From NCBI RefSeq assembly GCF_000011485.1, contig NC_005071.1:1987347-2051346 (forward strand): a stretch of 64,000 bases of DNA. Direction: 5' to 3'. A program made the position numbers and the translations under genes. The notes beneath the pieces were generated by a model that was given only the letters and a program-made list of their open reading frames with translations, searched no databases and had not been told where the DNA came from. The DNA is from Prochlorococcus marinus str. MIT 9313. GTDB taxonomy: Bacteria; Cyanobacteriota; Cyanobacteriia; PCC-6307; Cyanobiaceae. Each line of letters starts with the position of its first letter. Within the stretch, counting starts at the first letter, position 1. Of the stretch, positions 9,735-56,398 are shown in pieces.

Positions 9735-10483
9735 GACTCGTAGGTTGATGAAGACTGAGAAGCTGGGCTGACATCAATTTCAGGGGTGTTCAACTCCGCA
9801 GCCATTGGTAGCCCAGCACCAGGCTTCAAGGCAGCTTTCTGGGTATCAGCACTCAAGTAGGCCCCGGTGACAATTGGCTCAACTCGCTTCATATGATGGG
9901 GCACTGTGAAGTAGCGGTGGGTCTGGGCAATCTTGATCCGCTCAGCAACCGATTCATCACCCACTTTTTTGCGTAACTTGATCACCGCATCAAAAATTGC
10001 TTCAGGGCGAGGTGGGCACCCTGGGAGATAGAGATCTACGGGGATGAGCTTGTCTACTCCACGCACAGCGGTAGTGGAGTCAGCACTGAACATGCCACCA
10101 GTGATCGTGCATGCACCCATAGCAATCACGTATTTAGGCTCAGGCATCTGCTCATAAAGCCTTACCAGGGCTGGAGCCATCTTCATGGTCACCGTGCCCG
10201 CAACGATCAGGAGATCAGCCTGCCGCGGAGAGCTTCGGGGCACCAAGCCAAAACGGTCAAAATCAAACCTTGATCCAATCAGAGCCGCGAACTCGATAAA
10301 GCAACACGCGGTGCCATACAGCAACGGCCAGAGACTGCTAAGCCGAGCCCAATTGTGAAGATCGTCCAGGCTTGTGAGAATGATGTTCTCACTCAAGTCA
10401 CTGGTCACACTGGGAGCGCCTACGGGGCCACAACTCGCTGCACGCAAGTCACGTACGGCATCGATGGAGGGGGTCACTGACAT
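9731..10483 (-). CDS. ndhK: NAD(P)H-quinone oxidoreductase subunit K
   Basis: A 250-residue NuoB/NdhK subunit carrying the N2-type 4Fe-4S cluster of NDH-1. Cluster ligands are visible: adjacent cysteines in [13 protein letters not shown], one in GACTITGGM and one in [10 protein letters not shown]. The C-terminal 40 residues are a variable tail. ATG at 10483 ([13 protein letters not shown]) was chosen; the frame is open 22 codons upstream but that would overlap ndhC. The start is four bases after the ndhC stop, and its stop overlaps the ndhJ start. Confidence 0.96.
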
Positions 10484-10487
10484 GAAA

Positions 10488-10850
10488 TCAACTCCACTCG
10501 AGGGCACCCTTGCGCCAGGCATAAGCCAGTGCAACAAGAAGGATGGCAATAAAAATAAGGGCTTCGATGAAAGCCAATAGACCTAAGCGATGAAATGCCA
10601 CAGCCCAGGGATAAAGGAAAACGGTTTCCACATCAAAGATGACGAAAACTAAAGCGAACATGTAGTAGCGAATGTTGAACTGAATCCAGGCACCACCAAT
10701 GGGCTCCATCCCTGATTCATAGGTCAGCTCCCGCTCGCCGGTGCGACTGCGAGGCGCCAAAAGCTTGTTGGTGACAAGCGCCAAGATCGGTACTGCTGCT
10801 GAGATCAGCAGAAAGCCGAGAAAAGCGTCATAACCCGGCAGCGCAAACAT
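10488..10850 (-). CDS. ndhC: NAD(P)H-quinone oxidoreductase subunit 3
   Basis: A 120-residue membrane subunit (NuoA/ND3 type) of NDH-1 with three predicted transmembrane helices. The conserved loop is [20 protein letters not shown] and the acidic membrane motif [15 protein letters not shown] 10850 ([16 protein letters not shown]) matches the standard start; an ATG at 10892 would add 14 basic residues. It is the first gene of ndhC-ndhK-ndhJ and divergent from rubA, with 83 bases between the starts in which both promoters must lie. Confidence 0.95.
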
Positions 10851-10933
10851 GGACAAGTACGACTTGCTTCTCAGTCTGGCATTCACTGCCATGGGCTAAC
10901 GCCGATAGAGTTATCCCATCTGACAGTGCAGCT

Positions 10934-11362
10934 GTGAGCGACAAAACCACACCTGCCGAAGACTCGACAGAAGCCGAATCAGTTGCTCAAACTGACGTTG
11001 ATTGTATGGCCATAGACACCATCGCCTCAGCAGAGTCCGACACCGATCAGCTCACCCATCGCTTTGAGTGCCGCAGTTGCGGTTACGTCTATGACCCAGA
11101 AGAAGGAGTCAAGAAGCTTGGCATCACTTCCGGAACAGCTTTCAAGGATCTCGATCCAACCAACTTTCGTTGCCCCGTATGCCGTGCCCGCATCGACGCC
11201 TTCAAAAACATCGGTCCTCGCAGTGCACCTAGCGGCTTTGACCAAAACCTCAACTACGGCATCGGCGTCAACCGCTTAACACCCGGGCAAAAGAATGTCC
11301 TGATCTTTGGAGGCCTGGCACTGGCCTTCGCCTTCTTCCTCTCCCTCTACTCACTGCGTTAA
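10934..11362 (+). CDS. rubA: Membrane-anchored rubredoxin
   Basis: A 142-residue rubredoxin of the thylakoid type required for photosystem assembly in oxygenic phototrophs. After an acidic, variable N-terminal 40 residues comes the iron site with two CxxC pairs: CRSCGYVYDPEEG and FRCPVCRARIDAF. A C-terminal transmembrane helix (VLIFGGLALAFAFFLSLYSL) follows a GQKN turn. It starts with GTG at 10934. It heads rubA-ycf48-psbEFLJ, an order conserved across cyanobacteria and partly in algae, which ties it to PSII assembly. Confidence 0.93.
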   Translation: MSDKTTPAEDSTEAESVAQTDVDCMAIDTIASAESDTDQLTHRFECRSCGYVYDPEEGVKKLGITSGTAFKDLDPTNFRCPVCRARIDAFKNIGPRSAPSGFDQNLNYGIGVNRLTPGQKNVLIFGGLALAFAFFLSLYSLR

Positions 11363-47807: not shown

Positions 47808-48989
47808 TCACTCGGAAGGGAGGAGTTGCTCCAAGCGTTCGAGGCATCGCTTCCGAAGCAATTCCGATGCGAAGCGCTGACGCACGGCCTGAGCTTCCCG
47901 CCCCAAGCGTTGGCGCAGATCAGAGTCAATCAGCATGGCGTCAAGTTGATCAACCCAGAAAGCATCAGGCCTCTCTGCCGGTATCAAGATCCCGTCATGG
48001 TCAGACGTGATCAATTCCGAAGGCCCCTGGGGACAATCCGCTGCAACACAGCAACAGCCTGCTGCCATGGCCTCCAGCAACACATTCGGAAACCCCTCAT
48101 AACGAGAGGCCAACACAAACAGAGTCGCTCTGTCATACCAATCCGCCATGTTGCCGACTCGACCAGGCAAATGAATCCGATCCACCAAGTCAGGGCGATC
48201 GTGCACCCGCGCCAAGAGCTCGATTTGTTGGTCCCGGCCTCGGTAGGGCCGCTGATCCAAACCAACGAGCACGAGCTGCAAATCCTGATGACGGTCGGCA
48301 AGCGCCAAAAACCAATCGATCAGGCGATCGAAACCCTTTTGATGGGCCTTCGTTCCAACACCAAGAAGCACAGGAGCGTCACCGCTCACACCAGCATCTG
48401 CAAGCCAACTGCAAGGATCCAGCTGCGGATCAAACACATCGAGGGGCCACTGCACCGGATTTGGCAACAACAACTGATCACGCACACCGAGATGAGCTGC
48501 TTGCCAATCGGCCACGACCTGTGTCTGCACCAGGTGCAGTGCAGCCCAGGGATATACCCATCGACGTAACAGGCGCCAGACCAAACCAATCCGTTTCAAT
48601 GGCGGGAAATTTCTCTCCGACACCACCGTGGGGATCCCCAGCCCCCGAGAAGCCAAAAGCAATTTGACAGCAGGGATCGAGGTGACGCCAATGGCCAGAC
48701 TGATCTGCTCACGCTTGAGCCAGCGTCGCAAGCGCCAAACCCGCACAGGGAATCCGACAACACCAAGCCATCGAACCCACCTGCTGTCGGAGGTTTCCAC
48801 CAAACGTTCAACACCATCAGGCAAGGGATAGAAATCCCAATTAAGTGGTTTTCTCGTCAGCAGAACTGGCGACCAACCCGCATCCCGCAACCATGACGAC
48901 CAAGTAAGGGTGATGCGCTCAGCACCACCGAGTTTGAAACTATCGATGTAGAGCACCACGCGCCGCATCGACACCTCGCTGCTGCTCAT
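47808..48989 (-). CDS. Glycosyltransferase family 4
   Basis: A 393-residue GT-B transferase: VVLYIDSFKLGGAERITLTW is the N-terminal acceptor loop; LLGVGTKAHQKGFDRLIDWF, LVLVGLDQRPYRGRDQQI and SRYEGFPNVLLEAMAAGCCC (E-x7-E) mark the donor domain. The order is that of PglH/RfaB-like retaining transferases. ATG 48989 overlaps the stop of the preceding gene as ATGA. It sits in a coupled glycosyltransferase run with an ABC exporter upstream. Confidence 0.85.
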   Translation of the reverse strand: MSSSEVSMRRVVLYIDSFKLGGAERITLTWSSWLRDAGWSPVLLTRKPLNWDFYPLPDGVERLVETSDSRWVRWLGVVGFPVRVWRLRRWLKREQISLAIGVTSIPAVKLLLASRGLGIPTVVSERNFPPLKRIGLVWRLLRRWVYPWAALHLVQTQVVADWQAAHLGVRDQLLLPNPVQWPLDVFDPQLDPCSWLADAGVSGDAPVLLGVGTKAHQKGFDRLIDWFLALADRHQDLQLVLVGLDQRPYRGRDQQIELLARVHDRPDLVDRIHLPGRVGNMADWYDRATLFVLASRYEGFPNVLLEAMAAGCCCVAADCPQGPSELITSDHDGILIPAERPDAFWVDQLDAMLIDSDLRQRLGREAQAVRQRFASELLRKRCLERLEQLLPSE

Positions 48990-50194
48990 GCACCGGTCAC
49001 CTGGACTCGCGAGTGCGACCCAAAGCGCGCGAGCAGCCCTTGCTGTTGAAGGATCTCGAGCATCGCCTCCGTTCGAGTTTGATATGTCTGAGTCCGTGCT
49101 CTGGCAAGGCGTTGATCCAGATTGGGCCCTTGACCAGCCAAGACTGCTCGAATCGCCTGTTCAAAGATCTCGACCTGAGGCTCGCAAAGGCAAGCCACGT
49201 CGGCATGAGCAATCAAAGCGGGAATCGCTGTGGCCACCACAGGTAACCCTGCAGACAAATACTCGAAGAATTTCATCGGGAACATGTTGCGGGTGTAGCC
49301 GTTGAGCTGCAAAGGCAGAAGGGCCACATCCACGTGGGCTAACCAGGCTGGTAATGCTTCATAGGGCTGTGGACCAACCAACTGAACATTTGGGCAACTC
49401 TCCAGAGCAGCCACATCCGTAGACGGATCACATTCGCCAACCGGACCAATCAGCACAAAATCCCAGCCAGGATTACGACTGATCAGATAATTCAAGAGCC
49501 TGAGATCTAACTTGTAGGCATCAATCGCCCCCATAAATACGAGTCGAGGACGAGGACTTGATCTTAAAGATTGTGGGCAAGTTAAAGGCTGAAGCGCATG
49601 ATTGAAATGACGATAATCGGCCACATTGCCAAACATTCGAGCAGCTTGATTCCAGCGAAGATGAGTGGCCTGCAATTCAGGCGAGGTGGTGAACAGCACA
49701 TCAACCTGACGCGACAACTGCCGCTCATTGACTTCGATCAGCTGAGAAGGCATACCTGGCTGCTCCTGAATGCGATCGACACAGTGGTAAACAGAAGCTG
49801 CAAAACGGCTGAGATCGAGATAGAGAGTTGTGAGGGGGTTATAAGTCCATAAAATCTGGAATCGGAATTTCAACGATCGAGTCGCCACAAACAATCCAAT
49901 TCGCAGCAGAAAACGATTCAAAGCCAATTTCAAACCTGAATGCCCACCAGGGATGACTGGGGGCGACCAGACCCAGAGGTTTTTGTGACGCCTATAGGGC
50001 AACCGAATCATTCGGCGAAGACGCCGAATGATTCGGGCTCGGTCCGCAATTCCAACCCGAGGTGCACGAATCCCAAGCGATTCCACATACAACACACGGT
50101 GGCCAGCCTCAGCCAGCGCAAGAGCCGTATGCTGCTTATTGGTCCACAGTGGATGATCCCAGTCTGCGGTGGAAAGAACAATAAAATCGGCCAT
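48986..50194 (-). CDS. Glycosyltransferase (GT4/GT-B type)
   Basis: A 402-residue GT-B protein: FIVLSTADWDHPLWTNKQHT at the start, WTYNPLTTLYLDLSRFAASV, YHCVDRIQEQPGMPSQLIEV, a donor domain with LVFMGAIDAYKLDLRLLNYL and VLIGPVGECDPSTDVAAL, and MFPMKFFEYLSAGLPVVAT with the acidic donor residue. It is like the transferases of the exopolysaccharide H type. ATG 50194 is five bases after the ABC exporter's stop, and it overlaps the next gene by four bases. Confidence 0.82.
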   Translation of the reverse strand: MADFIVLSTADWDHPLWTNKQHTALALAEAGHRVLYVESLGIRAPRVGIADRARIIRRLRRMIRLPYRRHKNLWVWSPPVIPGGHSGLKLALNRFLLRIGLFVATRSLKFRFQILWTYNPLTTLYLDLSRFAASVYHCVDRIQEQPGMPSQLIEVNERQLSRQVDVLFTTSPELQATHLRWNQAARMFGNVADYRHFNHALQPLTCPQSLRSSPRPRLVFMGAIDAYKLDLRLLNYLISRNPGWDFVLIGPVGECDPSTDVAALESCPNVQLVGPQPYEALPAWLAHVDVALLPLQLNGYTRNMFPMKFFEYLSAGLPVVATAIPALIAHADVACLCEPQVEIFEQAIRAVLAGQGPNLDQRLARARTQTYQTRTEAMLEILQQQGLLARFGSHSRVQVTGA

Positions 50195-50199
50195 GAGAA

Positions 50200-52017
50200 C
50201 TATTCAACTTCGATTAACGCCATTTCTCGGAAACTGGCCGACTCTCTCTGCAGTTCTTCAAACGTGCCATTGGCAATAATTTTGCCGTTTGCCATTTCAT
50301 AAATTTGATCACACTTCTTGACCGTCGACAAGCGATGCGCAATCACAATTGTGGTACAGCGGCGTCCAACAATATCAAGAGCCTGCATTACATCATGCTC
50401 AGTTTTGTTATCGAGGGCACTTGTCGCCTCATCCAACACAAGTACTTTTGCCTTGCGGAAGAAAGCTCGAGCCAGAGAAAGTCTTTGCCGCTGACCGCCA
50501 GAAAGTTTCACACCATTCTCACCAACCATGGTAAATAATCCATAAGGCATCTGACTCACATAGTTATCAAACTGAGCAGCCTCCAAAGCGACCCAAACAT
50601 CATCATCATTGATGGATTCAAGATCTTGACCGAAGGCAATATTTTCCCGAATACTTGCATCAAGAAGGCGAATATCCTGGGGGACAAGTGCGCAATTGGC
50701 CTGCCATGCTGGCACCTCCTCTTCATTGAGCGGAACACCGTCTAGCGAGAGTTCACCTCGCGTGGGAAGAAATAACCCCAGCAAGAGATGAGCCAATGTG
50801 CTCTTACCGCTGCCTGTTCGGCCAACCAAAGCAATCCTTGAACCTACGGGAATCGTCAGATTGACATCTCGAAGCACCTCTTTCTCAGTACCGCCATAAG
50901 TAAAACCCACGCCCTCCAGTTCAATAAATCTGCGTGGCATGACTCCCTCGGGAGTGGGCACCCCGGGGGACGACAACACAAGTCGATCAGGGGTCATGCT
51001 CAACAACTGCAAAGCATCCTTAATTTCAGGCAGGCCGCCTCTGAGCTTGTTAATGCTACGAAACATCGATTGCAGGGGAGACGAGATGCGCAACAACGTG
51101 ACCAGGACTGCTGCCAAAATCGGCACAGCTTCACGAATTTTCTCTGTATCACCAGCCAGCAATGCCGGAGCCAGACCAACCAAAAACAGGATGGTGATAC
51201 CTGCAGGCTCAATGATGAACCGTGGCACATCAGGCAAAAGCTTGGACAGACGGTCATAACGCTTCGCGACAACTCCATCTCGAGAGAATCTTCGAACAAA
51301 GAATTCATCAGCAGAATAAATTTGCACATCTCTCATTGACCTCAGAGACTCCATCAAATATAAATTGATCCGCCGCGAGTAACGCAACTTCTGCTTCGTT
51401 GACAAACGCAAGTATGGGGTAATGATTACTGAAGCAATGACATAGGCAGCCAACATCAAAACGAAAATCAACAGGGCATCCCAGCCAAGTACAAATACCA
51501 CTCCAACAAGTAGCACTAAAACTGAAAGCGTGTTACCAACAATTGTAATCAGAGGTGTAACAACTGTCGTCGAAACACGGTTAAGTATTCTATTAAATCT
51601 CTCCGAAAGATGAGCAGTTCGATTGTGAGTAAAGAACTCATAACGCTGCAGCATCAAGTTGGCATAGACCTTATTAACTAAATCTGTCCAAATCTCCGCA
51701 CTGAGCAAACTCTGCATCAAAGAGACACCAAATCGGATCGCCGAGGTGAACCAAAAAGAGGCAATTAATAGCCCTAACAACCATCCGGTTTGATCAAGAA
51801 TGCCACCGCCAAAAAAACGGATACCCGGAATGCGATCATGCAACGTCGCTCCCGACATCACCCCTACCAACCTGGCCAGCAGACCAACCAGCAGCATGTC
51901 AAGCAAGCCCTGAAAAAAGGAGGCCAGCAAAACAAGAATCAGAAGGTTGATGCGCTTAGAGGGAAGTTGACGGAGTAGCTCTCTTAGTTCCTTCCAGGTC
52001 TGGCTTTGCAAGAGCAT
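50200..52017 (-). CDS. ABC exporter, MsbA/PglK-like lipid or glycolipid flippase
   Basis: A 605-residue half-transporter with an N-terminal six-helix membrane domain (residues about 20-320) and a C-terminal ATPase: Walker A LVGRTGSGKSTLAHLLLGLF, Q-loop CALVPQDIRLLDASIRENIA, signature VKLSGGQRQRLSLARAFFRK, Walker B VLVLDEATSALD and switch TIVIAHRLSTVKKCD. It probably exports a glycolipid or lipid-linked oligosaccharide made by the glycosyltransferases encoded downstream. ATG 52017 (MLLQSQTWKELREL) was preferred over an upstream one at 52059 that lies in odd sequence. Confidence 0.88.
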   Translation of the reverse strand: MLLQSQTWKELRELLRQLPSKRINLLILVLLASFFQGLLDMLLVGLLARLVGVMSGATLHDRIPGIRFFGGGILDQTGWLLGLLIASFWFTSAIRFGVSLMQSLLSAEIWTDLVNKVYANLMLQRYEFFTHNRTAHLSERFNRILNRVSTTVVTPLITIVGNTLSVLVLLVGVVFVLGWDALLIFVLMLAAYVIASVIITPYLRLSTKQKLRYSRRINLYLMESLRSMRDVQIYSADEFFVRRFSRDGVVAKRYDRLSKLLPDVPRFIIEPAGITILFLVGLAPALLAGDTEKIREAVPILAAVLVTLLRISSPLQSMFRSINKLRGGLPEIKDALQLLSMTPDRLVLSSPGVPTPEGVMPRRFIELEGVGFTYGGTEKEVLRDVNLTIPVGSRIALVGRTGSGKSTLAHLLLGLFLPTRGELSLDGVPLNEEEVPAWQANCALVPQDIRLLDASIRENIAFGQDLESINDDDVWVALEAAQFDNYVSQMPYGLFTMVGENGVKLSGGQRQRLSLARAFFRKAKVLVLDEATSALDNKTEHDVMQALDIVGRRCTTIVIAHRLSTVKKCDQIYEMANGKIIANGTFEELQRESASFREMALIEVE

Positions 52018-52191
52018 GGACACGCCGCACAATTCTTCTCGGAGGCAGACGAAACGCAAGCATCCTTAAAGCGCAAGTTACCGGTTGCCAACCTCCACAA
52101 TCAGCAACAGGTCGGCCAGCCAGGTAACCGATTGACCCTCCCCAAGCCCCCTAGTCGATGCAGCAGCTCATCAGAAAGACACAAGCCACAA

Positions 52192-53229
52192 TTAGCAGCG
52201 AGAGATCAGCCGTCTCAAAAACCTCAATATTCGGCCAACCTTTCGATTGAATCGCAACAGAAAGGTTGGAGACCTCCTGAGGGGCACTTCATCTGACGGC
52301 ATGGTCTCAATAGCAGCCAGCGCCGATCTCCAACGCGACATCAAAGCCGTTTCCGTATGTTCACTTAACAGCTGATTGAGCCGCTCCTGCGTTGGACGCC
52401 AAGCCGACGGCTCTCGCACAGATTCGCAAATCCGTCGCACATCCCAGGCGAGACTGCCGCAACCAATCTGATGGCCAACCACACTCGGCTCAAGGGTATC
52501 GGCGAGCGCATGATTGAAACTGCTGAACACAACGCAGCCGCAAGCCATCGCCTCTAGAGGGGGCAAGCCAAAGCCCTCACTCAGGCCATTACTCCGCCAA
52601 TACTCAGCCGAATCGTAGATATAAACCTTGGAAGCGTTGAACAGAGCGACCAGGTCCTCCACCCAGCCACTCTGAACCACAACCTTCAGCCCTAGCTTTC
52701 TCAAGGCAGGAACCAATTGCCCCAACACATAACGGCTACTCTTTCGCTCCTGCACCAAGACATCGATGGAGCGATCTCCAGCTTCAGCCACAGCTACTCC
52801 AAGCCGAGCACCTCTCTCCAACCAATGGGGTTCTAAGGCATTAGGCACCAAAAAAAGAGGATTGCGAGGTGCCCGGTCAGCCCAGTAGCCAAGGGTATTC
52901 CTGCTCACCGCGAAGACAGGAACCCCTGATGGAAGATCAAATCCATAGCCGCTGCTATGGGCGTGATAAATCACATGCCGCCCCCTTAGACGCCGTAATA
53001 ACTTCGGCACTTCAAACCCCCAGCTCACCACCCAAAGCGTTTCTCCTGGAGCTGGTTCTTGCTGCAAAAGATCATCCAAAAACAGATAATCGTCCTGACG
53101 GGTCCGATAGGTGACCAAATCAGTAGGTAGAAGCCTGTTCACCAACCTTGCGGTATGAAGCGCCACTGAAAGACCACCGCAGCGATAGCGATCAATAGTC
53201 CCCGGAACCAGAAAAAAGACGCGACGCAC
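52192..53229 (-). CDS. Glycosyltransferase (GT4-like)
   Basis: A GT-B-like protein of about 345 residues. Blocks are VFFLVPGTIDRYRCGGLSVA, VVSWGFEVPKLLRRLRG, HVIYHAHSSGYGFDLPSGVP, DVLVQERKSSRYVLGQLVPA and SNGLSEGFGLPPLEAMACGC, the last holding the donor E-x7-E motif. The family-like part begins right after GTG 53229, which I take as start. The frame stays open to a TTG at 53406, but those extra residues are rich in Trp and Cys and look non-coding. No ATG is near. It is in the same orientation as the ABC exporter, about 175 bases upstream of it. Confidence 0.75.
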   Translation of the reverse strand: MRRVFFLVPGTIDRYRCGGLSVALHTARLVNRLLPTDLVTYRTRQDDYLFLDDLLQQEPAPGETLWVVSWGFEVPKLLRRLRGRHVIYHAHSSGYGFDLPSGVPVFAVSRNTLGYWADRAPRNPLFLVPNALEPHWLERGARLGVAVAEAGDRSIDVLVQERKSSRYVLGQLVPALRKLGLKVVVQSGWVEDLVALFNASKVYIYDSAEYWRSNGLSEGFGLPPLEAMACGCVVFSSFNHALADTLEPSVVGHQIGCGSLAWDVRRICESVREPSAWRPTQERLNQLLSEHTETALMSRWRSALAAIETMPSDEVPLRRSPTFLLRFNRKVGRILRFLRRLISRC

Positions 53230-53989
53230 AGGGGCGAGGGGACTAACCGATGCAGAACTATGCCGCAGTTTGATCAAATCTGACGATTGCAATCCCCTCA
53301 GACCACCACATCCTCGGTGCTGCCACCTCCTTGGCGGCACGTGAACAATCCACAAACAGGACCTTCCCAATTGCAGACACCAAGTTGCAATAACTGGAGA
53401 GATCAACCACGCCTTTGAGCAAAGAGCTCACGAAACCAGTGTTCTCGGCCATCGTATGGGCTGCCTTAATGCCTTCTCTCAGTGCGCTCGCCAGGACTAC
53501 CACCATTTGGAACACAAACCTTTTACAGGTGAAAGGGCATTAAAAATAGCTGGTGCGTCATGAAATCATCGATTGCAGAGAGTTAAGAGAACACCCTCCC
53601 CGCTGAACTGATTTGCATCAAGAAGGCGGCACTAAAGCCACAAGCTCCACGGCTGTATTAGTAGCGCAAGATCAAGGGTCTCACCCTCAAACCAACTGCA
53701 AATCTGTGGATCATGCCTTCAGCAAGTGAAGATGGATTGAGTAGCTGGCATATACAGACTCAAGGCATGACGATTCAATCTGGCCCTGAGCAAACTCCAA
53801 GTGATGCATCTTGTAGCGACTGCATCCAGTCTCCTGAAGCGTACCAATCTTGCAGGATCAATCAGTGCCATGCCATTACGGTTGCGGCACTTTGATGTTG
53901 TCCCTGATGAGGAATCGCTTTGCCATGTCATGTCTATTGCTACTCGATCATCTCAAGGCGATGAATGCAATCCTTGAGACTGTGCTGCC
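53230..53989. other. Intergenic region with two small unexplained frames
   Basis: About 760 bases before the GtrA-YdjC gene. On the minus strand, 53258-53515 (GTG start) encodes 85 residues including SALREGIKAAHTMAENTGFV and SSLLKGVVDLSSYCNLVSAI, with natural-looking codons but no known family. On the plus strand, 53870-53977 encodes 35 residues starting MPLRLRHFDVVPDEESLCHV. Either could be a remnant of a lost gene. Nothing else is recognised. Confidence 0.4.
53258..53515 (-). CDS. Possible small protein or gene remnant, unknown
   Basis: GTG 53515 to a stop at 53258 gives 85 residues. ATG codons 4 and 22 are alternative starts. The middle (ENTGFVSSLLKGVVDLSSYC) reads like a real protein and has bacterial-type codon use. 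It overlaps the possible 5' extension of the glycosyltransferase at 52192. I cannot assign a family; it may be a fragment left by deletion. Confidence 0.25.
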   Translation of the reverse strand: MFQMVVVLASALREGIKAAHTMAENTGFVSSLLKGVVDLSSYCNLVSAIGKVLFVDCSRAAKEVAAPRMWWSEGIAIVRFDQTAA

Positions 53990-55297
53990 ATGAATTTGCA
54001 GCCATTGGCTGAACGGGTAGGGCGTTATGGACTAGTCGGACTAGCAGCTGCAGCCATACACGCAACGGTGCTGGTGCTCATGGCAAAGCTCATACCGTTC
54101 TGGCTGAGCAACCTCAGTGGCTTCTTAGCCGCCTCATTGGTCAGCTATCTAGGCCATGCCCTATACACCTTCCGTTCAGAAACAACTGGACAGCGCTTCG
54201 CACGTCGCTGGTTGCTTCTGCAGTTCAGTGTCAATGTCAGCGTGAGCGCACTATTGCCATTGGCGCTCAGCCCTTGGGCTTCACTACCGATCACCACAGT
54301 GATGCTGGTTTTTACACCGACATTGCTCAATGCTCTGATCTGGTCAAGGGCAGCCCGATTCAGCGTGCGCCGGCAGCAACGATCTAACAAGACGAAGCCT
54401 CAACTGCATGCCGATGACCTAGGTCTCACCAACGCGACCAACACCGCCATCCTTGCTCTTGCTGCGGCCAGGCAGTTGGACAGCGCCAGCCTGCTGGTAA
54501 ACGGCAATGCCGTTGAGTCCGCTATTGAACAAAGTAGAAGCTACCCCAGCCTTCAACTTTGCTTGCACCTCTGCCTAAGCGAAGGTCGAGCAGTAGCGCC
54601 CCCTCAACAAGTGTCTGAACTCATTGATGATGCAGGGCGGCTCAAATGCTCTTTTGGGACGTTAATGCTGGCATCATGCCTACCTAAAAATGCGCCAAAA
54701 CGACGAAGACTTGAGAGGCAACTTCGCTGTGAACTGAATTCTCAAATCCAGCGATTTCGAGAACTCACTGGACTCACCATCATCGCCATTGATGGCCATC
54801 AACATGTGCATCTGGTGCCAATCGTGCTCGATGTGATCCTCGAACTAGCCCCTGAGCAAGGAATCAGCTGGTTACGCACCACTGCTGAGCCCTTGCCTAT
54901 TGGGCTGTCATCACGCTACTGGCTAACAGCTCTAACGAATGGTGGCTGGTTGAAGTGGCTTGTGCTGCAGAACCTCACTCGCATGGCTTTACCACGACTG
55001 CGCAAAGCGTTAGTCGCGACCAACGCCCGATTTGCCGGCGTGCTTTTCACAGGGCGAATGGTGGATGCTCCGCTCAAAGCTGCTTGGGAAGAACTCACAT
55101 CTGTTTCATTCTCACCACCGCAAACACAACCTTTGCTGCTATCGCATCCAGCTGCACCGCTAAAGCCAGAAGAGATTCATAAGGGCCTAACAGATTTCCC
55201 TTTATCTCGTACATTTTTCTCCTCCACATGGCGTCAACTGGAGTGGCAAGCAGTCAAAAAAATACAAGCCAGTGCCTCCACTCAAAGTGAACCATGA
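53990..55297 (+). CDS. GtrA-like flippase domain fused to YdjC/ChbG-like deacetylase domain
   Basis: A 435-residue fusion. Residues 1 to about 130 match GtrA: four transmembrane helices with RYGLVGLAAAAIHATVLVLM, NLSGFLAASLVSYLGHALYT and FRSE, ending ALIWSRAARFSVRR. GtrA proteins are thought to flip lipid-linked sugars. Residues about 137-420 match the YdjC/ChbG/HpnK carbohydrate deacetylase family: LHADDLGLTNATN has the metal Asp pair, HLCLSEGRAV supplies histidines and AIDGHQHVHLVPIV follows. The two halves are joined by a short basic linker. It is convergent with the GtrB/ArnC-like gene and overlaps its end by 16 bases. Confidence 0.82.
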   Translation: MNLQPLAERVGRYGLVGLAAAAIHATVLVLMAKLIPFWLSNLSGFLAASLVSYLGHALYTFRSETTGQRFARRWLLLQFSVNVSVSALLPLALSPWASLPITTVMLVFTPTLLNALIWSRAARFSVRRQQRSNKTKPQLHADDLGLTNATNTAILALAAARQLDSASLLVNGNAVESAIEQSRSYPSLQLCLHLCLSEGRAVAPPQQVSELIDDAGRLKCSFGTLMLASCLPKNAPKRRRLERQLRCELNSQIQRFRELTGLTIIAIDGHQHVHLVPIVLDVILELAPEQGISWLRTTAEPLPIGLSSRYWLTALTNGGWLKWLVLQNLTRMALPRLRKALVATNARFAGVLFTGRMVDAPLKAAWEELTSVSFSPPQTQPLLLSHPAAPLKPEEIHKGLTDFPLSRTFFSSTWRQLEWQAVKKIQASASTQSEP

Positions 55298-56256
55298 ATG
55301 GCCCTAATGAAATAGTGTGGCCTGGCTTTAGTATCCACATAGATCCGACCGATGTACTCGCCAAGTACACCGATACCAATCAATTGAATACCCCCCAAAA
55401 ACAGAACCGCCACAATCAGTGAGGCATAGCCAGGAAGGTCAACTCCATTAAAAATCGTGATCAAAACGATCACTGCGGCGTAAAGCAAACTAATTAAGGA
55501 AACTACAAGGCCCAAAAAACTCCAAATCTTTAGAGGAATCACTGAGAAGGAAAAGATGCCATCAAGGGCATAGCTCCATAGCTTCAGGGGGCTCCAGGAG
55601 CTACGACCTCCCATTCGTTTCACCCTGCTGTAACTAAGCTCGACACTGCGATATCCGGTCCAAGGAAGTAAACCTTTGGAGAAACGACTGAATTCACGCA
55701 TTTGAGTTAGGGCTTGCACAACCGGTGCACTGAGTAAACGAAAATCTCCTGCCCCATCAATCAGTTGAATGGAATCCACTACCCGGTTGAAAACGCTGTA
55801 GAACCAGGAGGAAGTTGTTACTTTCAACCTTGATTCCTGATCACGATCGTCACGGACTGCAGTAACAACCTCAGCACCACCACGCCAAGCCTGAGCCATC
55901 TGCGTAATCAACTCTGGCGGATGCTGAAGATCTGAATCAATCAGCACCACAGCATCGCAGTGGTCCTGGGCATAATCCAAGCCGGCCAGCATTGCCGATT
56001 CTTTACCAAAGTTCCTTGTGAGCTCCAACAAAGTGACTGGAGTAGAAGCCTTAGAGCCAACAAATCGCTGCTGCCATGAGCGGATCTGAGCCACCGTGGC
56101 GTCACGTGAGCCATCATCCACCAGCAACAGATGACTGACTTCCGGCAAGGCAAGCACTCGTTCGATGAAGTGGCAGATCACAGCCTCTTCATTGAAACAG
56201 GCAGCTACTACCCAGATCTGACCAGGCAAACGCTCTGAAATTGATGATCTCTCCAT
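55282..56256 (-). CDS. Polyprenyl-phosphate glycosyltransferase, GT2 (GtrB/ArnC/DPM1-like)
   Basis: A 324-residue inverting transferase that moves a sugar from a nucleotide donor to undecaprenyl phosphate. The GT2 domain shows VVAACFNEEAVICHFIERVL, HLLLVDDGSRDATV, LTRNFGKESAMLAGLDYAQ, the metal motif LIDSDLQHPPELI and GAGDFRLLS. Two C-terminal membrane helices (residues about 233-257 and 267-292) and the end LGEYIGRIYVDTKARPHY are classic for this group. ATG 56256 is preceded by an in-frame GTG. It is convergent with the GtrA-YdjC gene, its probable partner. Confidence 0.9.
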   Translation of the reverse strand: MERSSISERLPGQIWVVAACFNEEAVICHFIERVLALPEVSHLLLVDDGSRDATVAQIRSWQQRFVGSKASTPVTLLELTRNFGKESAMLAGLDYAQDHCDAVVLIDSDLQHPPELITQMAQAWRGGAEVVTAVRDDRDQESRLKVTTSSWFYSVFNRVVDSIQLIDGAGDFRLLSAPVVQALTQMREFSRFSKGLLPWTGYRSVELSYSRVKRMGGRSSWSPLKLWSYALDGIFSFSVIPLKIWSFLGLVVSLISLLYAAVIVLITIFNGVDLPGYASLIVAVLFLGGIQLIGIGVLGEYIGRIYVDTKARPHYFIRAIHGSL

Positions 56257-56398
56257 CACTCACTATGGACGTAGAACAGCACTACTGAATTCGAGAAGAA
56301 TTTGGCAAGCTCAAGCTAAGTCGCTTAAGTCTGGTCGTCAGGGCCACCACCAAGACATAGGCTCGCCTGAGCACGCGTCACCGTCGCGAACGTTTCCC

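Follow-up and report, generated by a model that had tools for sequence, protein, structure and literature searches.

In Prochlorococcus marinus str. MIT 9313, a GtrA membrane domain and a YdjC/ChbG-like deacetylase domain are parts of a single protein, and its gene faces that of a GtrB/ArnC/PgfS-like family 2 glycosyltransferase (GT2). This fusion is real, conserved and mechanistically sensible, and the coupling of deacetylation to transport is the interesting, hypothetical part of it. With a probability of roughly two in three, the two proteins serve to produce and export an amino sugar carried by polyprenyl phosphate, by way of loading, deacetylation at the cytosolic face, flipping and transfer. 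Because the deacetylase and the presumed flippase are one chain, the assumed order of deacylation before flipping can be put to the test in a single protein.

The fusion gene, its partner and the predicted active site

The two genes were found in a stretch of 64,000 nucleotides (the window) from a genome that consists of a single contig of 2,410,873 bases. The fusion gene lies at 53990..55297 on the forward strand and encodes 435 amino acids, the stop codon being within these coordinates. Both domains are present in this single open frame, as the earlier note had claimed, and each is above its Pfam cut-off: GtrA_DPMS_TM (PF04138) matches residues 12-96 with 40.4 bits against 26.1, and YdjC (PF04794) matches residues 139-423 with 144.2 bits against 29.7. 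In the AlphaFold2 model, the GtrA half covers residues 3-130 (53996..54379, forward strand) and has four helices; behind helix 4 lies a positively charged linker (residues 119-138; 54344..54403, forward strand), seen in an alignment of 37 orthologues. The deacetylase half, residues 139-423 (54404..55258, forward strand), was assigned from Pfam, fold and a PDB sequence match, the last of which was obtained for this half only. The partner gene occupies 55282..56259 on the reverse strand and starts with GTG or, alternatively, with ATG at 56256. Its product, classified from the open reading frame, Pfam, NCBIfam and a family search, matches Glycos_transf_2 with 86.5 bits against 23.3, and two hydrophobic stretches were recognized by eye in its C-terminal part. 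The genes are convergent and overlap tail to tail by 16 bases (55282..55297), exactly as previously described. Among the best 80 of 483 relatives, the nearest named record is that of Prochlorococcus sp. MIT 0701, whose fusion protein is 95% identical.

By curated sequence cut-offs, the fusion and its partner belong to the YdjC and GtrA families and not to HpnK, ChbG, ArnC or PgfS. The models nearest to the GT2 are those of PgfS and ArnC, both scoring under their equivalog cut-offs (248.9 against 500 bits and 140.3 against 529 bits, respectively). For the fusion, the top named NCBIfam models are HpnK (TIGR03473, 120.1 bits) and chitin disaccharide deacetylase (NF002559, 78.3 bits), and from these one may suppose that the substrate of the YdjC half is some other sugar, either free or bound to a lipid (a glycolipid, say), by analogy with HpnK, whose substrates are hopanoids, and ChbG, which acts on chitobiose, with the GT2 serving a different pathway. 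This is rather improbable. Both scores stay under the cut-offs of 232.6 and 227 bits, the GT2 is linked to the fusion in 80 of 83 genomes, and YdjC sequences from hopanoid contexts form a clade separate from the fused ones. Moreover, no match to the hopene cyclase model TIGR01507 was obtained in the window genome at E 0.001, in a search whose control was positive in only 2 of 14 genomes. On the missed HpnK cut-off, the missing cyclase match and the separate clade, a hopanoid route was rejected for this genome. The tree used here and below was made by a quick search with SH-aLRT values only, from 78 rows hand-picked among 138 usable ones; L086, L117 and L195 (ChbG) were left out as too short, and L071 for its lack of YdjC. 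Its 14 hpn rows were labelled by position, and 11 of the 14 loci have at least one hopanoid marker.

The metal-ligand motifs HADD and GHQHVH are both found in the fusion protein. When it is aligned to E. coli ChbG, D142 and D143 (codons at 54413..54418), H193 (54566..54568) and H270 (54797..54799), all on the forward strand, fall on D10, D11, H61 and H125; H386 (55145..55147, forward strand) does not pair with ChbG H206 in this alignment and is matched to it solely through an LxxHP-like motif. In Klebsiella ChbG, D11, H61 and H125 are described as binding the metal, with D10 and H206 as the proposed base and acid (PMC9402603). The earlier note had considered that orthologues might lose these ligands. 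No such loss is seen: none of the seven positions D142, D143, H193, H270, H274, H386 and R415 varies among 37 fusion proteins, namely those of more than 390 amino acids from the fetched loci, a part of the 83 described below.

In these 37 orthologues, the N end, loop 2-3 and the linker carry on average 2.73, 4.46 and 4.84 K/R residues and loops 1-2 and 3-4 only 0.41 each, and the bias holds in every one of the 37; the mean D/E content of the linker is 0.43. Thus, by the positive-inside rule, the deacetylase half is predicted to be cytosolic. AlphaFold2 (75 rows) gave a model with a mean pLDDT of 90.3 and a pTM of 0.82, in which four helices (residues 3-31, 37-64, 72-92 and 100-130) lead into a barrel. 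In a comparison with the PDB by VIA-align, whose rows cover residues from about 131 onward and so the deacetylase half, the matches were 2i5i (Z 24.4) and ChbG 7vi8 (Z 23.9, rmsd 2.8 over 239), and ArnD 8t0j was more distant (Z 10.7, rmsd 3.2 over 194). By Pfam score, metal and catalytic residues and modelled fold, the YdjC half is a YdjC/ChbG family member and a predicted deacetylase. The GtrA half is a GtrA family member by its Pfam score and the four membrane helices of the model, and flipping is its putative function.

Conservation of the fusion and loss of its deacetylase half in picocyanobacteria

Some match to the fusion protein was found in 106 of 400 genomes of its own family, and in 83 of the 400 the match is near full length; many of these 83 genomes are single contigs. 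One TGA occurs inside the matched stretch in 14 of the 83 rows, and in the three of these 14 that were examined (G316, G180 and G075) both domains are still in one open frame. A strong GT2 orthologue (at least 386 bits) lies on the same contig in convergent orientation in 80 of the 83, with a gap between the two matches of at most 150 bases in 77 of these 80 and of 544, 1226 and 1939 bases in the other three. As to the three genomes without a strong GT2, G052 has a diverged convergent GT2 (31%), and G286 and G336, both incomplete drafts, show weak GT2 matches only. Conversely, the strong GT2 is present in 84 genomes, and the four that do not show a full-length fusion match (G131, G098, G246 and G302) all keep part of it.

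At the level of loci, some genomes being represented twice, the YdjC domain was found in 78 of 79 examined. All 78 have the convergent GT2, at a stop-to-stop distance of -132 to +126 with one exception of 1927, and in 75 of them the two domains share a single frame; the remaining three are a broken gene in G098, represented twice, and a contig end in G246. The pair persists amid differing other neighbours (L061, L065-L070). In a search of the phylum, 166 of 377 genomes gave a match; among the matches listed, which do not extend to the weakest, 19 are near full length, all in the own family, and the remainder cover just one of the two domains, GtrA in G131 and YdjC in all others. Viral contigs yielded two distant YdjC-only matches.

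These counts bear on whether the fusion could be a sequencing or gene-calling artefact or a chance local event, to which the stand-alone GtrA of G131, G183 and G231 might point. With near full-length copies in 83 of 400 genomes and one frame in 75 of 78 loci, practically no room is left for such an origin, which is refuted by the conservation of the fusion. The fusion is neither a matter of chance nor a local frameshift, and it is conserved in the family. The earlier note had asked whether the domains are separate genes in most strains: no cyanobacterium with GtrA and YdjC as separate neighbouring genes was seen among the loci examined, and such genes are common in Pseudomonadota.

The deacetylase half has been lost or broken in a few cases. 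G131, a single contig, keeps a 144-amino-acid GtrA and the convergent GT2 and has no YdjC at the locus; in the draft G098, stops break the YdjC part while GtrA and GT2 are open; and G183 and G231 have GtrA alone. G131, with its GtrA and GT2 and no deacetylase half, shows that transport cannot depend strictly on deacetylation; in this genome, either an acetylated form of the sugar is accepted or GtrA and GT2 have another role. Ten further family genomes have a more distant stand-alone GtrA, with a related GT2 8-48 bases away on the same strand in 10 of 10 compared. In the tree, the 15 fused YdjC rows are one clade with an SH-aLRT of 98. It is plausible that an ancestral GT2-GtrA pair gained the deacetylase once in picocyanobacteria.

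Several other features adjoin the pair. Just upstream of the fusion, at 48986-53406 on the reverse strand of the window, two family 1-type glycosyltransferases stand around an ABC exporter, a block found beside the fusion in many, not all, related loci. A heme oxygenase gene remnant lies at 53258-53515 on the reverse strand (PF01126 positions 3-44 of 204, E 9e-7, at 53369-53494), and an intact copy is present elsewhere in the genome (G000:C1:1788419-1789033). A heme oxygenase-like gene (cluster c4) adjoins the fusion in many related loci.

Partner genes and the proposed pathway

In the pathway that we favour, the GT2 would act first, at the cytosolic face, and attach an N-acetylhexosamine to polyprenyl phosphate, giving polyprenyl-P-HexNAc. 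The YdjC half, tethered at this face by the GtrA half, would then remove the N-acetyl group with its metal-dependent ChbG-type active site. The GtrA half would move the carrier to the periplasmic face, and a GT-C transferase there would transfer the free hexosamine to a glycan or lipid of the cell surface. The LPS of marine Synechococcus has been described as containing glucosamine and galacturonic acid in minor amounts, and its lipid A as carrying one galacturonic acid and no phosphate (PMC4515613), so that, as far as the composition given in that source goes, a hexosamine acceptor in LPS is possible.

The last step has candidates in related loci. An ArnT-like PMT_2 open reading frame (69.4 bits, Pfam) precedes the fusion by 7 bases on the same strand in L066, and two ArnT-like GT-C genes lie upstream of it in L065. 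Against the favoured pathway, the window genome has no GT-C gene next to the pair, and its own ArnT-like gene, found in 355 of 400 family genomes, occurs mostly in those without the fusion. The GT-C of L091 was found in 52 of 201 genomes, and a comparison of the lists by hand showed a full-length fusion in 24 of these. Neither gene is specific, and co-occurrence singled out no acceptor GT-C. A DUF2079 membrane protein (Pfam) is encoded near the fusion in L051 (13304-14728), and members of its cluster, c31, adjoin the fusion in L067 and L068; L067-L070 have another membrane-protein cluster, c26, in common. The c31 and c26 proteins are possible GT-C partners.

Outside cyanobacteria, relatives of the deacetylase are encoded next to these partners, in genes of their own. 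Named genomes were scanned, and the best 80 of 483 relatives, chosen by short peptide patterns, comprised four cyanobacterial fusions (L094-L097), which were set aside, and 76 other loci. Within 4 kb of YdjC, 64 of these 76 have a GT2, 48 a GtrA (counting the fused domain of L120 itself) and 39 an ArnT-like gene; 32 loci have all three and 12 have none. Beyond 4 kb, a search of 659,377 bases of the same loci in all frames found neither GT2 nor GtrA nor ArnT-like genes. Near and far sequence was scored alike, in all frames, by iterated profiles partly trained on hits from these very loci. With a greedy gene caller on 61 of the 76 loci, profiles made from cyanobacteria only found GT2 in 47, GtrA in 24 and ArnT in 21, and iterated profiles found 47, 27 and 30 nearby and 1, 1 and 0 elsewhere. 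In L120, a proteobacterial metagenome-assembled contig, YdjC (residues 11-261) and GtrA (288-403) are fused in reverse order in one frame (9980-11194, forward strand), next to GT2 and ArnT. This protein groups with L109, far from the cyanobacterial fusions; thus, if the single contig is right, the halves have been joined at least twice. GtrA adjoins YdjC on the opposite strand in many Pseudomonadota loci (e.g., L106, L115, L116 and L173), and opposite-strand neighbours recur in the GT2-YdjC-ArnT module as they do in the window pair.

From this survey of the best 80 of 483 relatives, GtrA is a candidate flippase for the NaxD-type modification with amino sugars. The window pair has the adjacent GT2 of that type, as do 80 of 83 fusion genomes, and the adjacent ArnT-like GT-C is absent beside it and present in L065 and L066. 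Several observations speak against the favoured pathway as well: the fused YdjC is a deep clade of its own, whose joining branch to GT2-linked YdjC has an SH-aLRT of only 56, HpnK, an enzyme of hopanoid synthesis, is the named model that fits it best, G131 lacks YdjC, and all of the partners are missing from 12 of the 76 loci.

Alternatively, the GtrA half may serve as a membrane anchor and docking subunit, keeping the deacetylase close to the GT2 and to the lipid that the GT2 produces, and the carrier would be flipped by some other protein. The Pfam name of the domain, GtrA/DPMS transmembrane domain, agrees with this, and so do the one-chain GT2-GtrA protein also encoded by the window genome and the 10 of 10 compared deacetylase-less family GtrA genes that follow a same-strand GT2 by 8-48 bases. 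GtrA proteins are, moreover, only thought to be flippases in the literature (PMC8035078). However, separate small GtrA genes adjoin GT2 and ArnT in many bacteria, and three-component systems have GtrA as the presumed flippase (PMC8035078), so that a mere anchor is unlikely. The one-chain GT2-GtrA protein (L001, 739-1866, forward strand; G000:C1, about 2070267-2071394) is the only other GtrA found in the window genome and is another joining of a loader with GtrA.

Going beyond the pathway of loading, deacetylation and flipping, we tentatively suggest that the fusion is a substrate-gated flippase, in which the cytosolic deacetylase hands its product to the GtrA helices and the exported form is the N-deacetylated polyprenyl-P-hexosamine. 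GtrA would likewise be the flippase of the wider GT2-YdjC-ArnT (NaxD-type) module, and the two opposite-order fusions would mark the hand-over. Few photosynthetic cells in the sea are as abundant as picocyanobacteria. The prediction for them is a free surface amino sugar that varies between strains, and its amino groups would alter the charge of the surface and might affect encounters with phages and grazers.

Comparison with known systems

In the Arn pathway (ArnC, ArnD, ArnE/F and ArnT), a protected amino sugar is loaded on undecaprenyl phosphate, deprotected, flipped and transferred. The earlier note had modelled the pair on this pathway, and the logic of loading, deacylation and flipping has held up, given the partners in the 76 loci, the GT-C genes of L065 and L066, the active site, the predicted cytosolic topology and the fold; the window GT2 is also ArnC-like. 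ArnD as the closest precedent has not, because it belongs to another deacetylase family and its fold match is distant (Z 10.7). In addition, GtrA is not ArnE/F, and ArnD and the flippase are separate proteins. The closest precedent is NaxD with FlmF2 and FlmK.

In hopanoid synthesis, HpnI-HpnK, a YdjC deacetylase also acts on lipid-linked GlcNAc; here, by contrast, the hopene cyclase match is missing, the HpnK cut-off is missed and the clade is separate. In the NaxD route of Francisella, FlmF2 is a GT2, NaxD a YdjC-family deacetylase and FlmK an ArnT-like transferase, the same set of a YdjC deacetylase, a GT2 and an ArnT-like enzyme. They are separate proteins there, the YdjC of the cyanobacterial fusions branches deeply in a clade of its own, and the Francisella loci L124 and L156, which have arnT, GT2 and YdjC in a row, showed no GtrA within 4 kb in any frame. 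FlmF2 has been named ArnC-like (PMC8149597), and NaxD an N-acetylgalactosamine deacetylase (PMC9431647). For Acinetobacter, the enzymes for galactosamine transport and attachment to lipid A were given as not identified in 2022 (PMC9431647). The loci L138 and L147, with YdjC, GT2, GtrA and ArnT in a row, provide candidates for both functions.

Titles and the beginnings of abstracts in the literature searched, which holds few subscription papers, contained no GtrA-YdjC fusion, and no paper with both GtrA and YdjC was found in it. Three-component glycosylation systems have GT-A, GtrA and GT-C parts and a C55-P-sugar, and no deacetylase is mentioned in the available part of their description (PMC8035078). 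The GpgSDF (PMC12713373) and HexSDF (PMC10128005) gene sets are described as a synthase, a deacetylase and a flippase for an amino-sugar lipid; they differ in being three separate genes of other families, with phosphatidylglycerol or a glycolipid in place of the polyprenyl carrier. In Brucella, gtrA, wcaA, chbG and arnT are listed as consecutive genes and labelled as polysaccharide biosynthesis/modification, the same four gene kinds in a row, but as separate genes (PMC10746212). The fusion is thus probably the known logic of the Arn and NaxD routes in fused form, for which other bacteria use separate neighbouring genes.
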